Positions 2,895 through 33,246 of a DNA stretch of 64,000 nucleotides are shown one piece after another. This DNA comes from Halolamina sediminis (GTDB taxonomy: Archaea; Halobacteriota; Halobacteria; Halobacteriales; Haloferacaceae): contig NZ_CVUA01000001.1 in NCBI RefSeq assembly GCF_001282785.1, positions 1,736,001 to 1,800,000 on the forward strand. The letters are read 5' to 3'. The translations under genes were made by a program, and so were the position numbers. The notes under the pieces were generated by a model that worked only from the letters and a program-made list of their open reading frames with translations, did no database searches and had not been told where the DNA came from. How positions within the stretch are numbered: the stretch's first letter is position 1; every line of letters begins with the position of its first letter.

Positions 2895-3767
2895 TCAGAC
2901 GCTCCGGCGCCGAACCAACCGACTCGCCAGCCACGTCCCCGCGACGCTCCACGCGACCAGCGCCGCCACGAGCACCGGCATCGTCACGCCCGAGCCGACC
3001 AGCACGTCCGCCATCCCGCCGGTCACCGTCGGCACCGACTGCAGCGCGAGCACGCGAAACGCGGTGGCAGGGTTCGCGAGCACGAAGACGGCCAGCCAGT
3101 CCGGCCCCACGATGTCGGCGGCGATCAGCCCGACCGAGACGAGGTCGTGGACCAGCGCGACCCAGACCCACAGCAGCAACGCGCCGCCGAGGGCGTGGGT
3201 CTTCTCCGCTGCGAGCGTCGACAGCAGGGTCGACAGCGCGAGAAACGCCGCGCCGCCCAGTACTGCCGCACCGATGAGGCCGAGATACGCGGGGGTGAAC
3301 CGCCCCTGGGCCGCGAGCCAGAGCCCGCCGACGCCGAAGCCGGCGACGACCGCACCCGTGAACACCGCGAGCCGGCCGAGATACGTGCCGATGACGATGC
3401 GACTGCGTGGAACGGGGAGCGCAAACAGCACGCCGAGCCAGCCGGACTCGTCGCTGCCGACGACCGCGTCGTAGCCGAACAGCAGCGCGACCAGCGGGAG
3501 CAGCAGCGCCGAGAGTTCGACGAGGCTGACGACGACCGCGTCGGCGCGGACCACCCCGCCTTGCCCGCCGAGGGCGACGACGAGCACCGACAGCGAGGCG
3601 AACAGCGCCGCCAGCGCGAACGCCCAGCGATTCCGGACCGCGAGCGCGAACTCCAACCGCGCGACGGTGGCGACCTGATCGAGCGCCGACCCCTCGCTCA
3701 CCCCCGTCGGGAGGCTGAACGCGGGCTCCTCGGTGACACCCTCTTCCTCGGCGCTCACGTCGGTCAT
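2895..3767 (-). CDS. nosY: NosY: ABC-2 type permease for copper-site maturation of N2O reductase
   Basis: A 290-residue membrane protein with about six transmembrane segments after a roughly 35-residue cytoplasmic N-terminus. It shows the ABC-2 permease layout, with the first span after ARLEFALAVRNRWAF and a final span running into a basic tail RLVRRRSV. Its start overlaps the nosF stop by four bases, so it is the last gene of the nos operon. In the Nos system, NosY and NosF form the ABC transporter that works with NosD in assembling the copper-sulfide CuZ centre of NosZ. Identification rests mainly on operon position. Confidence 0.88.
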   Translation of the reverse strand: MTDVSAEEEGVTEEPAFSLPTGVSEGSALDQVATVARLEFALAVRNRWAFALAALFASLSVLVVALGGQGGVVRADAVVVSLVELSALLLPLVALLFGYDAVVGSDESGWLGVLFALPVPRSRIVIGTYLGRLAVFTGAVVAGFGVGGLWLAAQGRFTPAYLGLIGAAVLGGAAFLALSTLLSTLAAEKTHALGGALLLWVWVALVHDLVSVGLIAADIVGPDWLAVFVLANPATAFRVLALQSVPTVTGGMADVLVGSGVTMPVLVAALVAWSVAGTWLASRLVRRRSV

Positions 3768-19098: not shown

Positions 19099-20070
19099 TT
19101 AGCCTTCCGCCGGGCGAACCTCGAACCGGGCACCGCCGGCGTCGCTTGCGGTGAGCGAAATAGTCCAGCCGTGTGCCTCCGCGATGCGTTCGACGATCGT
19201 CAGCCCCAGCCCGGTTCCGCCTCCCGACCGGTCGGTGGTGTAACCGGGGGCGAACACCCGGTCACGCTCGGCCTCAGGGATACCGACCCCGTCGTCGGCC
19301 ACGAAGAAGCCGCCGTCGACGCGCCCGACACGGACCTGTGTCGGTGCATCGTGTGTCCTGTTCGCCGGACTGTGCTCGACTGCGTTGCGGAACAGATTTT
19401 CGAACAGCCGTTGCAGGCGGTCCGGATCGGCCGCGATCGTGGGGAGATCAGCGGCCAGCGTCAGCGAGGCCCCGGCGGTATCGACGGTCGCCCACGCGTC
19501 GGCCGCCACGTCGGCAACGCCGACGTTGTCAGTAAGCTCAATCGCCCCCTCCCGCTGAGAGAGGGTGAGAACGTCTTGAATGATCCGCTCCATCCGCTCG
19601 TGGGACGCTCTGATCTGATCGAAGTGCTCCTCGGCCCCCGTTTCGCGGGCCGCACGGAGGTGGGCGTTTGCCACGTCTAGTGGGTTCCGGAGATCGTGGC
19701 TGACGATGCTGGCGATACGGTCAACCGCGACGCCGGTCGCGAGTTCCGTCAGCAGGAGGCCTCGTTCGCCGTCGAGGGTTCGGAGCCGGTAATCGGCAGC
19801 GTCGCCCGGCACTGCGCCCGCGGCACGGAGTTCGGTGTCGACCGTGTCACCGGCCCTGAGCGCCGAACAAAGCTCCTCGACAGTGCCCTCGTTGACAGCA
19901 GTGTCGGATCGCAGCCAGTTCTCTACAGGCGTCCCGGTCGCAACCGGGCTGAACGCCGCTTCGAACGCCTCGTTGACCGCAGCAATCTCTGGCGATCGGT
20001 CCGAAATCTCGTACCGGACGAACGGGTCGGGAACCGCGTCGATCGGGAGGCTCGACGCCTCATCCGCCAT
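19099..20070 (-). CDS. Soluble sensor histidine kinase (PAS-HisKA-HATPase)
   Basis: A 323-residue kinase. A PAS-like N-terminal domain (about 8-110) precedes the H-box SIVSHDLRNPLDVA with the phospho-acceptor His125. The ATPase domain shows the N-box NLFRNAVEHS, G1 box DDGVGIP, F-box VFAPGYTT and G2 GGGTGLGLTIV. No membrane segment is present, so it senses inside the cell. The ATG at 20070 begins the conserved protein, though the frame stays open upstream to 20325. It lies 42 nt before the PAS/GAF/Bat regulator on the same strand; no receiver-only protein is adjacent. Confidence 0.88.
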   Translation of the reverse strand: MADEASSLPIDAVPDPFVRYEISDRSPEIAAVNEAFEAAFSPVATGTPVENWLRSDTAVNEGTVEELCSALRAGDTVDTELRAAGAVPGDAADYRLRTLDGERGLLLTELATGVAVDRIASIVSHDLRNPLDVANAHLRAARETGAEEHFDQIRASHERMERIIQDVLTLSQREGAIELTDNVGVADVAADAWATVDTAGASLTLAADLPTIAADPDRLQRLFENLFRNAVEHSPANRTHDAPTQVRVGRVDGGFFVADDGVGIPEAERDRVFAPGYTTDRSGGGTGLGLTIVERIAEAHGWTISLTASDAGGARFEVRPAEG

Positions 20071-20272
20071 GGCGATCACCGGCGCTCGGCCGAAATGTGG
20101 TCGGTACGACGCTGGCTGTCCGACGAAGTGGGCCGCTCGGCGGGAGTGGACACCGGCGAGCCGTCGTCGGGTGCATACCTCCAGTCTTCCACGGCCGTAC
20201 ATATAGGTCCCCACTCTAACAATACCGACACCCCCGGGAAATCGGGTCGCGGCCGGTCGTGCTGCGTAGGTC

Positions 20273-20324
20273 TCTACAGGCTGATAAGGCCGAGTGCCTC
20301 GGGGGTTGCCCCCAAGGCGGTTCA
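20273..20324 (+). repeat. Hairpin repeat, copy 1 (solo IS605/TnpB-type right-end-like)
   Basis: A 52-bp unit containing the hairpin GCCTCGGGGGTTGCCCCC followed by AAGGCGGTTCA. A second copy at 25261-25311 has the same orientation and nearly the same sequence. The conserved hairpin followed by GGTTCA recalls the right ends of haloarchaeal IS605/IS1341-type (TnpB-only) elements. No tnpB lies nearby, so these would be solo ends or derived small elements. The rest of the 20071-20483 gap holds no recognisable gene. Confidence 0.55.
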
Positions 20325-20483
20325 CTGACGAACGAGGCGAGTGCCCGGAAGGTCGACCCCGAAGCGGCTCACGGAAACCGAACGATACCGTTGATCACTC
20401 GTGTACGTTCGGGACCGTCGGACACCGTTGCCGGGACTGAAACACCCCACGGCCATTATCATCGCCTCGCGTAAACGTCAAGT

Positions 20484-20885
20484 ATGAACTACATTGCGGC
20501 CGATACGTGGCGGTACGCCCTCCTCGGCGGTATCGCGTCGATCCCGCTTTCGGCCGGCCTTTACTGGCTGACGGCGGCGGGCAGTACCTTCTCGCTCAAC
20601 ATGGTGTTCTTCGGCGGTGTCCTCGCGGGTTACTTCGCCGAGATCAGGGCCCCACAGATCGACATCACCGCTGTCGGTATCCGTACCGGACTGGTCGGTG
20701 GCCTCCCGGCACTCGTGCTCCTCCTCGAAGCAACGTCCGGGCTCGCCGGCCCGGTCTGGTTTCGTGCGGTGGGCGGACTGCTGTTTGTTGGCACGTTCGT
20801 AGTCTTCACGTTCGCCATCGCCGTGGTGGCCGGCGCCTTCGGCGCGGTCGGCGGGAGCTGGCTGGCCGGGAAAACTCGGGGGTGA
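20484..20885 (+). CDS. DUF5518-type membrane protein
   Basis: A 133-residue protein with four predicted membrane spans and glycine-rich helices (FFGGVLAGYFAEI, VGIRTGLVGGLP, and VVAGAFGAVGGSWLAGK at the C-terminus). The pattern of a GG-rich second span and a terminal glycine-zipper helix matches haloarchaeal DUF5518 proteins, whose function is unknown. The ATG at 20484 follows a short AT-richer stretch. It stands alone between an IS-like repeat and a glycosyltransferase gene. Confidence 0.7.
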   Translation: MNYIAADTWRYALLGGIASIPLSAGLYWLTAAGSTFSLNMVFFGGVLAGYFAEIRAPQIDITAVGIRTGLVGGLPALVLLLEATSGLAGPVWFRAVGGLLFVGTFVVFTFAIAVVAGAFGAVGGSWLAGKTRG

Positions 20886-21061
20886 TTCTGCTCCCGGATG
20901 GTCTGGGGGTGGCTGTACTGAGTTCCACTAGTCACAGGATCGAGCCCGGACACGGCCATTGATTCGGGTGGGTCTGCATAGTTAGAGAGGACACAGGGAG
21001 ACGTTCAGGCTGTTAGCCGTCCGATACAGGGAGAAGGGGGCCGATCCTCCGTCTACAACCG

Positions 21062-22438
21062 ATGGCTTCGTCCGTATCAGGAACCCCGTTCCGTATCCGA
21101 CAACGGCTCTCCAGCTTCCTCGTTCACCTCCGTAGCGTCGTTCCGGACTCGTTCCGGGACGGCTTCGACAGCGCGACGTTCGGCGTGCTCGTTGCCGCGA
21201 TCGCGGTCGCGGGCTACCTCCAAGGCGCGCTCTCGATGGTCGTCACGCTTCCGGCCGTCCTCGGCGGCGCGAGCGTCGTGGTTTTGCAGGCGGTGATGGC
21301 CTGTTTCACCCTTTCCGGGCTCTTCGGGCTCTCGTCAGTGGCGCTGCTCGGCCAGCTGGCGTTCACGTCCGAGAACCAGCGTCCGATGACGGGGCCAACC
21401 GTTACTGCGGTAGTCCCCGTCCACGAGGACGCCCCAGTCCTCCACCGGAGCGTCGAGAGCCTGCTGTCGAGCCGCTACGACTCGCTCCGGGTCGTGATCG
21501 TCGCCGAACCCGGAGACGACGCCTCGATTCGACGCGCGCGTGAGTACACAGGTGAGGACCGCGTCGACCTGCTGATCAACACCCGCTCCCCCGGTAGTAA
21601 AGCCGGTGCGGTGAACTACGCCGCAGCGGTGACTGAGAGCGAACTCCTCGCAGTGTTCGACGCGGACGAACAGGTCGACCGCCGGTTCGTCTCGGCGGCT
21701 GTCGCACAGCTCGAGGACTGCGACGTGGTGCAGGGACGGACGATCCCCGACCCGAACGGAGTCGTCGAAACGGTCGCGTACTACGAATCGGTCGTACTCG
21801 GCGACCTCAGTCAGCGGCTCCTCACTACGCTCACCGACTTCACCACGGCCGCCAGCCGGACCATCGTGATGCGGCGGGCGGCGTTCGAGACGGTCGGCGG
21901 GTACGACCCGTCGAAGCTCACCGAGGACTACGCGTTCGCGTTCGCCTGCTACGAGGCGGGCGTCGACGTGGTCGAGCAGTTCTCCTACGCCTCGACCATC
22001 GAGGCAGCCCACACGGCAGCTGACTGGTGGGGGCAGCGAAAGCGTTGGATGACTGGCTACGCGCAGGTGCTCCACAGCCTGGTGATGGGGAGTCTCAGCC
22101 CGCAGAACTACCGATCACTGGTGTCGCCAGCCATCTGTGCTGGCTCGGTACTCGGCAACGTGTTCATGCTCTCGCTGGTCTCGAAGATGGCAGTACTCGT
22201 CGTCAACGGTGCCGCCAAGTGGACGCTGCTGCCGGCAGCGACGCTCGTCGGTGCGGCGCTAGCGCTCAGGGCCTACGACGCCAATGCTGGTCGCCTCGAA
22301 CGAGTCGGGATCGGCTACCTGTTCGTGCCGGCCGTCCTGCCGATGTACAGCCTCGCCGGCATCAAAGCTGTCGTCGAGTACGTTCTCAGCTGGGACGGCG
22401 AGTGGTACAGCGTCGCGAAGGGACAGGAATCGGGATGA
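21062..22438 (+). CDS. Membrane-bound family 2 glycosyltransferase
   Basis: A 458-residue enzyme. Two membrane spans (about 40-105) precede a GT2 catalytic domain with VVPVHEDAPVLHRSVESLL, the metal-binding DADEQVD near residue 200, the acceptor-site TEDYAFA near 297 and QRKRWMTG (QxxRW) near 326. Further spans follow at the C-terminus. This order is that of processive cellulose- or hyaluronan-synthase-like enzymes that polymerise sugar and push it through the membrane. Donor and product are unknown. No other polysaccharide genes flank it. Confidence 0.88.
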   Translation: MASSVSGTPFRIRQRLSSFLVHLRSVVPDSFRDGFDSATFGVLVAAIAVAGYLQGALSMVVTLPAVLGGASVVVLQAVMACFTLSGLFGLSSVALLGQLAFTSENQRPMTGPTVTAVVPVHEDAPVLHRSVESLLSSRYDSLRVVIVAEPGDDASIRRAREYTGEDRVDLLINTRSPGSKAGAVNYAAAVTESELLAVFDADEQVDRRFVSAAVAQLEDCDVVQGRTIPDPNGVVETVAYYESVVLGDLSQRLLTTLTDFTTAASRTIVMRRAAFETVGGYDPSKLTEDYAFAFACYEAGVDVVEQFSYASTIEAAHTAADWWGQRKRWMTGYAQVLHSLVMGSLSPQNYRSLVSPAICAGSVLGNVFMLSLVSKMAVLVVNGAAKWTLLPAATLVGAALALRAYDANAGRLERVGIGYLFVPAVLPMYSLAGIKAVVEYVLSWDGEWYSVAKGQESG

Positions 22439-22592
22439 CCATCCTGGGGACGTGAAGGCGCCACGGGCCAACGAGATTGGTGAACCACCTCGGGGCGTTC
22501 GGCTCGACTGCTCCTAAATGCCTTTCCCCGCGTTCGGATCTCGAAACAGCGACTGGGCGATGAAGGGGAAAGCGACGGTAGAACGTACTTGG

Positions 22593-23717
22593 ATGGCCCA
22601 CAACGTATCCAGACGACGGTTCCTCGGTACACTCGGCGTGATCGGAGGCGCCGCAGGCGCCGGCTGCATCGGTGCTCCCACAGAGGACGAGAGCACACAG
22701 ACAGAGGCGACAGACGACGAGACGGTGACTGACGAGCCGAGAGCCTCCCCGACGGTTTCCGGGCCGAGCGGGACTCCCGAGTCGCTCCTCCGTCAGTACG
22801 TCGAATCAACCGTGGCGGCGTCGGACCCCGCCGTCGTCGGGGCGTACTTCCACCCGATACATCCGTTCCACCCCGAGAACATCGACCCCGAAACGGCGGG
22901 ACCGTGGCTGCTCCGGGACGAACCGGTGTCACAAGTCGCGGTCGAAACGATGGACCGGGAGGTGACGACCGATCTCGTCCGGACATCACCGTTCCTGCAG
23001 GGGGACAGAGCCGACAGCGAGACGATCGAGGACGCGCTCACCGGCGAAGAGGCCGCCGTCGTCGAGGTGACGATCACCGATTCGAGTGGTGACACGAGCG
23101 AGTTCAGCGCGGTTACGGTGACCCACGACGGGAACTGGGTGATCCTGACCCAGGGGGTCCGGATCGAGGCGGACGTCTCCGACCCCGGCCCGTTCGACGT
23201 ACGTGTCGTCGACAAGGTCACGTTCAACACCGATGAGGACCGCGCTCGCGTCCACTTCGTCGAATCACCGGTCGCCGATCGCGTGACTGCGAAGGCGGCG
23301 AACGCGACCTCCTCCCGGTCGTCGTCGACACCGGGAGTCATCACGTACTTCGACGTGAATCTGGATCCGACGGGTGACGAACTGGTGGTCACCGCAACCG
23401 TCGACGGCGAGACCCGGACGATCCATCGCGAACAGTACCCCGAGTCGGCGCGGGTCGTCGAGGGGATCACCTACGACGACGATCCTGACTCGGACCTGTT
23501 CGACGCCACAGCTCGGGTCTCGTTCACCGGCAACCAATCGGGTGACCGACTCACCGTCTCCTCGACGGTGCATGGTGGTGAGACGATGACCGAACCGGCC
23601 GAGAACGCGACGTACAGCGTCGTCGGCATCGACCCGGGAGGCGACGAAGTGGTCGTCACACTGACCAACGATGGGACGACGGCGGAAGTTCACCGGGAGC
23701 GGTACCACCAGTCGTAG
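22593..23717 (+). CDS. Tat-exported lipoprotein with tandem repeat domain, function unknown
   Basis: A 374-residue secreted protein. SRRRFLGTLGVIGG and the lipobox AGAGC near residue 25 indicate Tat export and lipid anchoring, followed by a Thr/Glu-rich linker. Residues about 65-200 form an NTF2/SnoaL-like region (LLRQYVESTVAASDPAVVG). Then two copies of a beta-rich domain of about 80 residues follow, each ending in a DPxGDExVVTxTxDG-type strand and HREQYPES or HRERYHQS. The ATG at 22593 was chosen because the signal begins there. No neighbour suggests a pathway. Confidence 0.75.
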   Translation: MAHNVSRRRFLGTLGVIGGAAGAGCIGAPTEDESTQTEATDDETVTDEPRASPTVSGPSGTPESLLRQYVESTVAASDPAVVGAYFHPIHPFHPENIDPETAGPWLLRDEPVSQVAVETMDREVTTDLVRTSPFLQGDRADSETIEDALTGEEAAVVEVTITDSSGDTSEFSAVTVTHDGNWVILTQGVRIEADVSDPGPFDVRVVDKVTFNTDEDRARVHFVESPVADRVTAKAANATSSRSSSTPGVITYFDVNLDPTGDELVVTATVDGETRTIHREQYPESARVVEGITYDDDPDSDLFDATARVSFTGNQSGDRLTVSSTVHGGETMTEPAENATYSVVGIDPGGDEVVVTLTNDGTTAEVHRERYHQS

Positions 23718-23761
23718 GCGACGAGAGCGACGTCGGACCGCGGCGTACGCTTCCGGTTCGC

Positions 23762-23771
23762 AAAAAAAAAA
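23762..23771 (-). terminator. T10 tract downstream of the LolA-like gene
   Basis: Ten consecutive A on the plus strand read as T10 on the minus strand, 14 nt after the stop of the gene at 23786-24904. Archaeal RNA polymerase terminates at such tracts. It also lies between two convergent genes. Confidence 0.65.
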
Positions 23772-23785
23772 GGTATCGAACCGCG

Positions 23786-24904
23786 CTACCCGTCGATGAC
23801 CGACACCCCGACATCTACGGCGGTCTCGTTCCGTACATCGCCGTAGATCGTGTACCGTTGGTCGGCCTCGATACTGAGCAGGCTGAACTCGTCGCTCGTG
23901 TAGAGATAGCCCGTGATCCCGCCGACTTCGACGGCCTCGTACATCTCCGACTCCTCGTAGTCGAAGTTCCCGGTCGACTCGGCCTGCGTGCTGACAGTGA
24001 TCGTCCGATTGCCGTCGCTGTAGCCCAGCGTGACGCCGTAGTAGTTCTCGCCGTCGATCGTCGTGCCGTGGTCGTAACTGAACCCGTCGCCGATCTCAGC
24101 GTCCGGGACTGAAACGTTCGCGGCCGCTGCGAGTTCGTCGTAGGTGTCGAACTCCGTAATCTCCGGGCCGACGGCCGCCGTCGGATCCGTTGCGTCATCG
24201 GGCACGTCGAGGTCGAACGTCCCGTCCGGGATCTCCTCGTTCAGCGTGACGTTCTCGTACGTCACCGTCGAACTGTGGTTGTACTCCTCACTTCGTGTCT
24301 GACTGTCCGTCCGGACCGGGAAGTACGTCTCCGTGTCGAGATACACAGTCGTCTCCGTCTCGACGTCGGCGTCGCGCTGGAACTGCTCTTCCGGAGTCAC
24401 GTCCAGCGCGTAGGTCTCCTGTCCGTCGACGGTTTCGATGCCGAGGTATTCGTAGTCGACCATGGACTCGTTCGCCAGCGACTCGATTCGGGGGAGGAGG
24501 GTTCCCGACTGGACTTCGTACTCCGAGACAGTGTTCTCCTCGGAGTCGTACGTGATCACCGCGCTGTCGTTTCGTACTGTCGTGACCGAATCGCTTCCGA
24601 TCGAGGCGTTCACCGTCTCGGTCCGCTTCAGGAACGACTCGAGGTCCGCGTCGACGCGGACGGTGTTCGTAGAGGTCTGATTGTTGAACGTGAGCTCGGC
24701 GGTGCGGGTGAACTGGACGGTTTCGAGGGTCGATACCTGCTCGAGGAACGCGTCGATTACCTCCTCACCGTCGGCTGTTTCTCCGGCCTGTGCGTCCGTC
24801 ATGGAGGGCGAACCGGCGAACGCGACGCCCACGGCACCACTGGTCAGCAGCATCGCTGCAGTGAGTACCGCAACCACCGTTTGCCGGCCTCTGCTCGGGG
24901 ACAT
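23786..24904 (-). CDS. LolA/DUF2092-like secreted protein
   Basis: A 372-residue secreted protein. The signal segment TVVAVLTAAMLLTSGAVGVAFA is followed by an acidic region. The central part resembles the outer-membrane lipoprotein-sorting (LolA-like) fold: EEVIDAFLEQVSTLETVQFTR, an N-glycan-rich beta section, and DGQETYALDV with YLDTETYFPVR, where a lipid-carrying half-barrel would form. The C-terminal third, from EITEFDTYDELAAAANV, resembles a DUF4367-like domain with SIEADQRYTIYGDV. Haloarchaea use such proteins at the cell surface, with unknown cargo. The ATG at 24904 begins the signal peptide. Confidence 0.75.
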   Translation of the reverse strand: MSPSRGRQTVVAVLTAAMLLTSGAVGVAFAGSPSMTDAQAGETADGEEVIDAFLEQVSTLETVQFTRTAELTFNNQTSTNTVRVDADLESFLKRTETVNASIGSDSVTTVRNDSAVITYDSEENTVSEYEVQSGTLLPRIESLANESMVDYEYLGIETVDGQETYALDVTPEEQFQRDADVETETTVYLDTETYFPVRTDSQTRSEEYNHSSTVTYENVTLNEEIPDGTFDLDVPDDATDPTAAVGPEITEFDTYDELAAAANVSVPDAEIGDGFSYDHGTTIDGENYYGVTLGYSDGNRTITVSTQAESTGNFDYEESEMYEAVEVGGITGYLYTSDEFSLLSIEADQRYTIYGDVRNETAVDVGVSVIDG

Positions 24905-25260
24905 AGCGACCGGTTCTACACCCCCCACTTGGATAGGCCTACAGACGGCTATCGTCCCCAGCAACGCGAACCCGGGTTTTAACACCGATCGCCGAAGCGG
25001 CTACGGCCCCGCCTCGCGGTTCCGAGACGATCCCCGCCGCGTCGCCACGGCCGACGGATCTCGAAGCTCGTCGGAGTACGTTCCGCGGGGTACGTCGCTC
25101 TCGCGAGATCGCATCGGCTGACTGCCAATCCGACGGGGAAACAACCCATCCGCGCGTTCGAGCGCGGGACGGTTCCGACGGTCCGCCGCAAAGAGTCGGT
25201 CGTCAGTTTCGGTATCCGAGCATCTGAGCACTCACGAGGCTATCCTGAACCGGGAACGGG
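24905..25260. other. Intergenic stretch without a recognised gene
   Basis: Open frames here are short and out of line with neighbouring codon usage. The region leads into the hairpin repeat at 25261. Confidence 0.5.
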
Positions 25261-25311
25261 TCTACAGATAAGCAAGGCGAGTGCCACGGGGCTTGACCCC
25301 AAGGCGGTTCA
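25261..25311 (+). repeat. Hairpin repeat, copy 2 (solo IS605/TnpB-type right-end-like)
   Basis: A 51-bp unit with hairpin GCCACGGGGCTTGACCCC and the same AAGGCGGTTCA end as copy 1 at 20273-20324, in the same orientation. Differences in one hairpin arm (CTCGGGGG/CCCCC versus ACGGGG/CCCC) keep the stem paired, suggesting the structure mattered while it was evolving. Confidence 0.55.
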
Positions 25312-25353
25312 GCGAATCGGTCCGGCGGAGCGAGTGGTGGCTACGTATCGTCG

Positions 25354-26013
25354 TTACGTTTGTCCGCCCTCCTCGTAGGGTTGGACGATTACGAACCCCT
25401 CGGAGTCGCCGAACTCCATCTGTACCCGCTCGCCGGACTGCTGGCCGATCTCGATGGCCTTGTTCGTCCCGATCGACGGTGAGAGGTTGGCGCTCCAGGC
25501 CACGGTCGAATCGGGGTCGGTCGTGACTGGCGGCCTCATCACGACGGGGTCGCCGTGGGTTGTGATGGCCACGTCGCCGGGGCCGGTGAGGAACACGTTC
25601 GTCAGCCCGCCCGCAGCGGCTTGGGAGAGGCCGCCGACGGTACCGATCTCGTAATCGATACCCTCCTCGAAGGCGAGCACATCGGTCCCGTTGACTGAGA
25701 TCGACTCGTCGGCGTCCAACGAGAGGATCTGTACCTTCTTGCCCTGATCGGCGACGTACAGCGTCCCCGATCCTTCGGCCTCCATGATCGGTGTCCCCTC
25801 GCCGCTGACGGCGTCCTTGACGAAGCCAGCGAGACCGCCCTCGGCGGAGGATTTGCCGGTGAACGTCACGTTCCCGGTGTAGGCGATCATCGAGCCGGCT
25901 TTTACCATCGTGATTCCGTCGAAGGGGATCTCTAACAACCGTTTGTTGACTTTTCGGAAACTGTCACCGCTCGATTCGGGAGCATTGGCGTCGACGAACT
26001 CGTCGAGTTGCAT
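25354..26013 (-). CDS. AIM24 family protein
   Basis: A 219-residue soluble protein of the AIM24/TIGR00266 family, a double-stranded beta-helix fold. Characteristic segments are MVKAGSMIAYTGNVTFTGK near residue 35, the GEGTPIMEAEGSGTLYVADQGKKV core and VFLTGPGDVAITTHGDPVVM near 145. It lacks a signal peptide. Biochemical function is unclear in prokaryotes; the yeast homologue affects mitochondrial inner-membrane organisation. The start at 26013 (MQLDEF) is the only one adjacent to the conserved domain. It is followed upstream by the response regulator gene on the same strand. Confidence 0.88.
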   Translation of the reverse strand: MQLDEFVDANAPESSGDSFRKVNKRLLEIPFDGITMVKAGSMIAYTGNVTFTGKSSAEGGLAGFVKDAVSGEGTPIMEAEGSGTLYVADQGKKVQILSLDADESISVNGTDVLAFEEGIDYEIGTVGGLSQAAAGGLTNVFLTGPGDVAITTHGDPVVMRPPVTTDPDSTVAWSANLSPSIGTNKAIEIGQQSGERVQMEFGDSEGFVIVQPYEEGGQT

Positions 26014-26120
26014 TGGACACTCGTACGTAAGTTCAGTCGGAAAAAGCTCTATCTCCCTGTTTCCGTTCGTGCAACACGGCACCCACAACACGAAAGTGAG
26101 GCGCAGAGCAACAGTTCGTG

Positions 26121-33070: not shown

Positions 33071-33246
33071 TGGGGACGGAGGGATTTGAACCCCCGATCG
33101 ACTGATATCTCCGGTGCGCCTCGGTCCTCCAGAGGGTCGTCGTCGCCGGCGATGATCAGTCGCCGACTCGGTATATCAGTCTGGAGTTCGTCACCGGGCG
33201 CGTGGCCTCTGGAGTCAGTCGCCATCCCGGGCTTGGCCACGTCCCC
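33071..33246 (-). tRNA. tRNA-Trp (CCA) with 102-nt intron
   Basis: The 5' exon (33246-33209, 38 nt) starts GGGGACGTGGCCAAGCCCGG and ends CTCCAG with anticodon CCA. The 3' exon (33106-33071, 36 nt) has the T-arm GGGGGTTCAAATCCC and ends CGTCCCC plus discriminator A. Acceptor GGGGACG pairs with CGTCCCC, and anticodon stem ACTGA pairs with TCAGT. The intron interrupts position 37/38, the usual archaeal site, and contains C/D-box-like elements (GTGACGA at 33194-33188 and CTGA at 33179-33176 and 33159-33156). Haloarchaeal tRNA-Trp introns are known to act as box C/D guides methylating their own tRNA. Confidence 0.95.
33107..33208 (-). ncRNA. Box C/D guide-like RNA within the tRNA-Trp intron
   Basis: The 102-nt intron holds a C-box-like GTGACGA and two CTGA boxes. 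In Haloferax the equivalent intron guides 2'-O-methylation of nucleotides 34 and 39 of tRNA-Trp. The boxes here are imperfect, so the exact guide pairing is an inference. Confidence 0.6.

Follow-up and report, generated by a model that had tools for sequence, protein, structure and literature searches.

We have analyzed a pair of short repeats in a 64,000-nucleotide stretch of the Halolamina sediminis genome (assembly GCF_001282785.1, contig NZ_CVUA01000001.1, forward-strand positions 1,736,001 to 1,800,000). This whole stretch is called the window below, and its positions are counted from its first letter. Copy 1 is situated between two divergent genes, one for a histidine kinase (19102-20070, - strand) and one for a DUF5518 protein (20484-20882, + strand). 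Copy 2 lies between a DUF4367-like gene (23789-24904, - strand) and an AIM24-family gene (25357-26091, - strand), 41 bp past the stop codon of the latter. A preliminary description, made from the letters alone, had recorded two units of about 51 bp in the same orientation. The pair is real, but the units measure 53 and 52 bp and a third, degenerate body had been missed. The term solo is used here for a unit in which the two ends of an insertion sequence (IS) are fused with no gene between them. The features are as follows.

20273-20325, + strand: solo copy 1, the TCTAC target plus a 48-nt fused body (left-end 5' part, shared hairpin, right-end tail CGGTTCAC)
20273-20277, + strand: TCTAC target of copy 1, a pentanucleotide resembling a transposon-associated motif; by comparison of occupied and empty Halorubrum sites it would be flank, outside the element
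20296-20318, + strand: hairpin of copy 1, GCCTCGGGGGTTGCCCCCAAGGC, with one C.A mismatch
20326-20372, + strand: degenerate third body in tandem with copy 1; alignment score to copy 2 of 49, against a maximum of 33 in ~42,600 background windows on both strands; 74% over 34 nt
25261-25312, + strand: solo copy 2, the TCTAC target plus a 47-nt fused body, ending in TTCAG and not in TTCAC
25283-25305, + strand: hairpin of copy 2, GCCACGGGGCTTGACCCCAAGGC, its stem with mismatches

The two copies are 91% identical over 34 nt without gaps, and 42 of 53 aligned columns agree when the 53-nt and 52-nt units are compared in full. The common end noted earlier was confirmed as AAGGCGGTTCA, an 11-mer with no third occurrence in the 2.84-Mb genome. 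The third body adjoins copy 1 directly, at the boundary predicted for the element end; from its position it is apparently a second element inserted in tandem, with one TCTAC target apparently common to both. A further, diverged solo of the same genome (G000:C1:2432191-2432228, L085; G, C and L numbers are our handles for genomes, contigs and loci) sits in flanks that match a solo-bearing site of G002 at 91% identity.

The unit is widely dispersed among haloarchaea. With a 66-base query, 56 of 60 genomes, that of H. sediminis included, gave a match at E<=10, and the best E-value was <=1e-6 in 31 of the 59 others (counted by eye from the table). Aligned copies share a sharp-ended unit, TCTACAGGCGGAGCAGGCCGAGTGCCTCGGGGCTTGACCCCGAGGCGGTTCAC, in unrelated flanks, and the window pair is therefore not due to chance. 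The unit was also matched by 96 plasmid records, the best 60 of which are all haloarchaeal; in 46 of the 58 annotated records among these best 60, the best match falls in a gene-free place. Of 146 genomes of the order, 27 contain an exact pattern for the unit start, at 32 places in total, representing 24 solos and 8 intact left ends; these counts are minima, since the pattern (gap N{10,14}) is restricted to units of the CGGTTCA type whose hairpin is perfect. The phage collection held no match to the 53-mer, nor to a 261-base stretch around a Halorubrum ezzemoulense solo, and a phage origin was rejected on that basis. A separate observation concerns two Haloferax plasmids (L129 and L133), in which a block of ~490 bp between two solo-like units is displaced relative to its neighbours; the breakpoints lie at or beside the units, a picture suggestive of local rearrangement seeded by solos.

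Some copies have the same 5' half and then continue as ..CCCCGAGGGTGAAGGCC; these are the left ends of whole elements. Such a left end is accompanied in G046 (L034/L044) by tnpB and by a Y1 tnpA divided between two frames. Left ends at 1033 in L045 and 1440 in L051 are followed about 2 kb further on by right ends of the form ..GGGAAG(AAG)CCTCGGGGCTTGACCCCGAGGCGGTTCAC, which end at 3233 and 3428, respectively. Short elements of ~350-400 bp with the right end TACTTCA(C) were found as well (L046, L047, L050, L052, L053, L054 and L057). The Y1 (HUH) TnpA of the full element L175 matches PF01797 with an E-value of 5.5e-35 (120.6 bits), and TnpB matches the TNB domain PF07282 in L044 (64.4 bits) and L175 (62.6 bits). 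With a Y1 TnpA, a TnpB, subterminal hairpins at both ends and, at one locus, insertion without target duplication, the source elements belong to the IS200/IS605 family. A TnpB-like match lies within 1.5 kb of the solo in only 3 of the 30 loci L014-L043 (L022, L030 and L034), at no constant position; one of the three, L034, proved to be a full element.

The unit consists of a left end (the TCTAC target and AGGC..GAGT), a hairpin of ~22 nt common to both ends and the right-end tail. Since the left ends of full elements equal its 5' half and their right ends its 3' half, the solo is a left end, one shared hairpin and a right-end tail. The preliminary description had taken the copies for right ends of TnpB-type IS elements: the family was correctly recognized, as full relatives encode a Y1 TnpA and TnpB, but the 5' half is a left end, and the reading as right ends only was rejected. 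Some hairpins are chimeric. In L048 the left arm and loop come from the left end found in its own genome and the right arm from the right end, leaving a mismatched stem, while L059 combines a left-end start and CTTGT loop with an TACTTCAC end. The solos L062 and L063 contain a hairpin insert of 54-55 nt like the right-end insert of L044 and L056. This insert (L044:2976, L056:3421, L062:1368 and L063 on the - strand; 54-58 nt) sits on the loop side of the IS605 hairpin and forms two small hairpins whose stems vary between copies yet stay paired, e.g. GGAAATCGAAGATTTCC versus GGAAGACGGAGTCTTCC, in a fixed frame GATGACGA..CGAACCACTTGA. Though shorter, it is reminiscent of the SMR-A elements, for which PATE palindromes are the reported target.

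One Halorubrum locus presents the full, solo and empty states together. We searched the 53-bp solo of Halorubrum sp. PV6 (G086, plasmid pHrrPV6) in 52 genomes of its genus. In G327, flanks 93% and 95% identical to those of the solo enclose a full element of 1,964 bases, TCTAC included (L175), made up of a left end equal to the solo 5' half, TnpB, TnpA (Y1_Tnp) and a right end equal to the solo 3' part. The two flank alignments between PV6 and G327 overlap by 20 nt, which is the hairpin. The site carries no element in G317 (..GTGTTCTAT|AGGCGACTCCC), so that ..CCCCTCTATCGATGTGTTCTAT|AGGCGACTCCC stands against the occupied ..CCCCTCTATCGATGTGTTCTAC, element, AGGCGATTCC, with the junction exactly after TCTA(C/T). 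Comparison of TCTAC, element, AGGCGATTCC with the empty TCTATAGGCGACTCC reveals, at this one locus, no target duplication and insertion 3' of the target oligonucleotide; the element body is therefore AG..TTCAC, beginning 3' of TCTAC. The locus (L175, L113/L168) is embedded in an origin-like repeat, ACACCCCTCTATCGATGTGTTC, and a nearby open reading frame resembles Orc1/Cdc6 by eye; L175 also has CRISPR-type repeats (RF01337).

The right ends of some full elements match a known RNA family. The Rfam family sot2652 (RF02657), a haloarchaeal sense-overlapping or omega RNA, matched the right end of L045 (46.1 bits), L051 (44.9), L175 (39.8) and L114 (37.1), all four below its gathering threshold of 61, and L105 gave a weaker match (32.6 bits). 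At the TnpB locus L008 of H. sediminis itself the family scored 175 bits. In that alignment the last hairpin of the model is the end hairpin of the element; of such an RNA the solo has therefore retained the final hairpin alone. The earlier suggestion of a guide-RNA 3' region thus holds in that the right-end half is the 3' end of a TnpB element, where sot2652 lies, but the stretch 20100-25500 gave no sot match at E<=10. Matches are confined to full elements, and an omega RNA in the window was rejected. Circular omega RNAs are dealt with in at least part of PMC12558985. Rfam families were absent from the window except for one tRNA, and no further piece of a transposon turned up between the copies. 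At 33071-33246 (- strand), a 176-nt tRNA match to the 71-position model, absent from the ARAGORN output, suggests a tRNA with a long intron.

The stems were examined in 40 solos at distinct sites, chosen from 111 rows classed as solo (among them a few right ends and repeat entries of one site under several loci). Over these 40 aligned solos, 84.7% of the cells were paired compared with 84.6% in shuffles, and covariation was 0.054 in both, with one pair changed on both sides. The compensating stem changes proposed in the preliminary description are thus no more frequent than expected, and compensatory evolution of the stem was rejected; the sole apparent case, C..A to G..C at an inner pair of copy 1, stands alone. 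Folding z-scores against shuffles were -3.12 for the family consensus, -1.71 for copy 1 and -0.62 for copy 2, whose mismatched stem folds no better than shuffles. The window copies look like decayed remnants.

In all probability the window repeats are solo, or terminal-only, remnants of IS200/IS605-type insertion sequences. This conclusion draws on the anatomy of the unit, the full elements, the one-locus series in relatives and the chimeric hairpins. A full element, with tnpA and tnpB between its ends, would be inserted 3' of TCTAC by TnpA without target duplication. Its near-identical end hairpins, GCCTCGGGGCTTGACCCCGAGG, would constitute a direct repeat of ~20 bp, and recombination or replication slippage between them could remove the core and one hairpin, leaving TCTAC, the left-end 5' part, one hairpin and the right-end tail, 53 bp in all, which would then decay. 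The enzymology of the recombination is presumably of this kind. No tnpA or tnpB lies at the window copies, which are 53/52-bp units only and are therefore remnants rather than elements; the lack of tnpB, correctly noted earlier, would follow from deletion of the core. Deletion between the near-terminal palindromes was seen in the Halorubrum relative, and the identical anatomy suggests the same collapse at the two window sites, for which the searches returned no full allele. The copies probably now serve no function.

Several results weigh against this interpretation. The empty Halorubrum allele has TCTAT instead of TCTAC, and its flank identity is only ~74-87%. In seven genomes of the genus Halolamina we found no synteny at the repeats and no empty or full allele of the window sites; the only piece in common lay over the AIM24-like gene beside copy 2. 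Full tnpB elements with the exact ends of the unit, which the preliminary description would have sought in the genome itself, did not turn up there and were found in other haloarchaea. H. sediminis does hold other TnpB and Y1 TnpA loci, and scanning its tnpB/tnpA loci revealed no such hairpin. One of them (G000:C1:2716873-2718673; L008, L092) is of the IS605 type and of another subfamily, with an open TnpB frame and a TnpA interrupted by TAG. 

Among the hunts for empty sites, only the PV6 locus gave a clean series: homology stopped at the element border and covered one flank only for L129/L134/L138 and L128/L135, a stretch of ~215 bases, more than the element alone, was missing for L126/L136, L183 lies at a gene end with no homology on its far side in the 29 relatives inspected, and L186 had no two-flank match among the matches listed.

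Other explanations must also be considered. The 48-nt fused unit, with one hairpin and both cleavage sites, might be a minimal transposon mobilized by TnpA in trans, in which case the window copies arrived as solos. We regard this as unlikely, although solos outnumber intact left ends three to one in the exact-pattern search (24 versus 8), and identical or near-identical solos occupy several unrelated sites in single genomes (G322, L177 and L178; G312, L179 and L181). Many identical solos could equally represent independent collapses of one family. The only site with a clear series has a full element as its alternative allele, which fits collapse after insertion. Moreover, the solo keeps the left-end sequence before the hairpin (..GAGT) and lacks that of the right end (..GGGAA), whereas in IS608 and ISDra2 each end requires its own guide 5' of the hairpin. 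In favour of mobility, six strain-specific ISHwa23 insertions, every one in the 52-bp form, are reported for Haloquadratum walsbyi, and the same possibility is raised there (PMC3119063). If it were true, the collapse of IS605 elements would yield a faster-spreading miniature and no dead scar.

Repeats of the repetitive extragenic palindromic (REP) or REPIN type, or hairpins that the host retains at the ends of genes in the manner of terminators, would explain the many short hairpin copies in mostly intergenic places, such as copy 2 just past the AIM24-like stop. Copy 1, however, has divergent genes on its two sides, a position that calls for no terminator; the stem lacks covariation and the window copies are decayed. 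The preliminary description had named copies never linked to tnpB as the mark of such repeats; in fact, most copies are gene-free, but the same ends are found on full transposons, and one such transposon shares its site with a solo, with an exact empty site and no duplication. We therefore consider host-kept hairpins very improbable. Bacterial REP/REPIN sequences with their REP-associated tyrosine transposase (RAYT, or TnpA-REP) are likewise short hairpins in dispersed places that presumably depend on a Y1 transposase. The present unit differs in that it demonstrably combines the two ends of a complete IS, and inspection of the consensus by eye revealed no GTAG/CGTC foot, though no RAYT search was made. 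Hardly any credence can be given to orphan omega or guide RNA genes serving a TnpB encoded elsewhere: the 3' half does match TnpB elements at their sot2652 end, and TnpB loci occur in the genome, one of them with the strong sot2652 match, but the solo is a terminal hairpin with none of the ~120-187-nt scaffold, the stems are decayed, and the window stretch has no sot match.

Solo remnants of IS605-type elements have a precedent. Terminal-only PATEs of 52 bp, derived from HqIRS46 and ISHwa23 by repeat-mediated deletion of the core, were described from H. walsbyi in 2011 (PMC3119063). They share with the present family the fused IS605-type termini, a conserved terminal oligonucleotide as target, the lack of target duplication, and full and solo alleles at one position; their core was deleted between near-terminal palindromes of 22 bp or 19 bp. 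The window copies have the characters of terminal-only PATEs: 53/52 bp, fused left and right termini, one hairpin, no transposase gene and no inverted terminal repeats. Full haloarchaeal IS200/IS605 elements with divergent tnpA and tnpB (L044 and L175; ends also in L045 and L051) share the left end, right end, hairpin and target of the window copies, which differ in having no genes and one hairpin, not two. The likeness to PATEs concerns their anatomy as described (PMC3119063). Relative to the H. walsbyi elements as that source presents them, the present unit occurs in other genera, as one sequence family across the order, with the Halorubrum full/solo/empty series and with chimeric hairpins. 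No other account of haloarchaeal terminal-only forms came up in our literature search, which covered sources in part. The decay is of a known kind; what is added is a new genome and a clearer allelic series.

The finding accounts for an orphan hairpin repeat that is widespread in haloarchaeal genomes. It is also a warning for annotation, as such units are neither omega RNAs nor right ends of TnpB elements. The locus with full, solo and empty states is a marked place for testing the mobility of the fused 48-nt unit. As with solo long terminal repeats, the formation of solos suggests a general fate of haloarchaeal IS605-type elements, beyond Haloquadratum.

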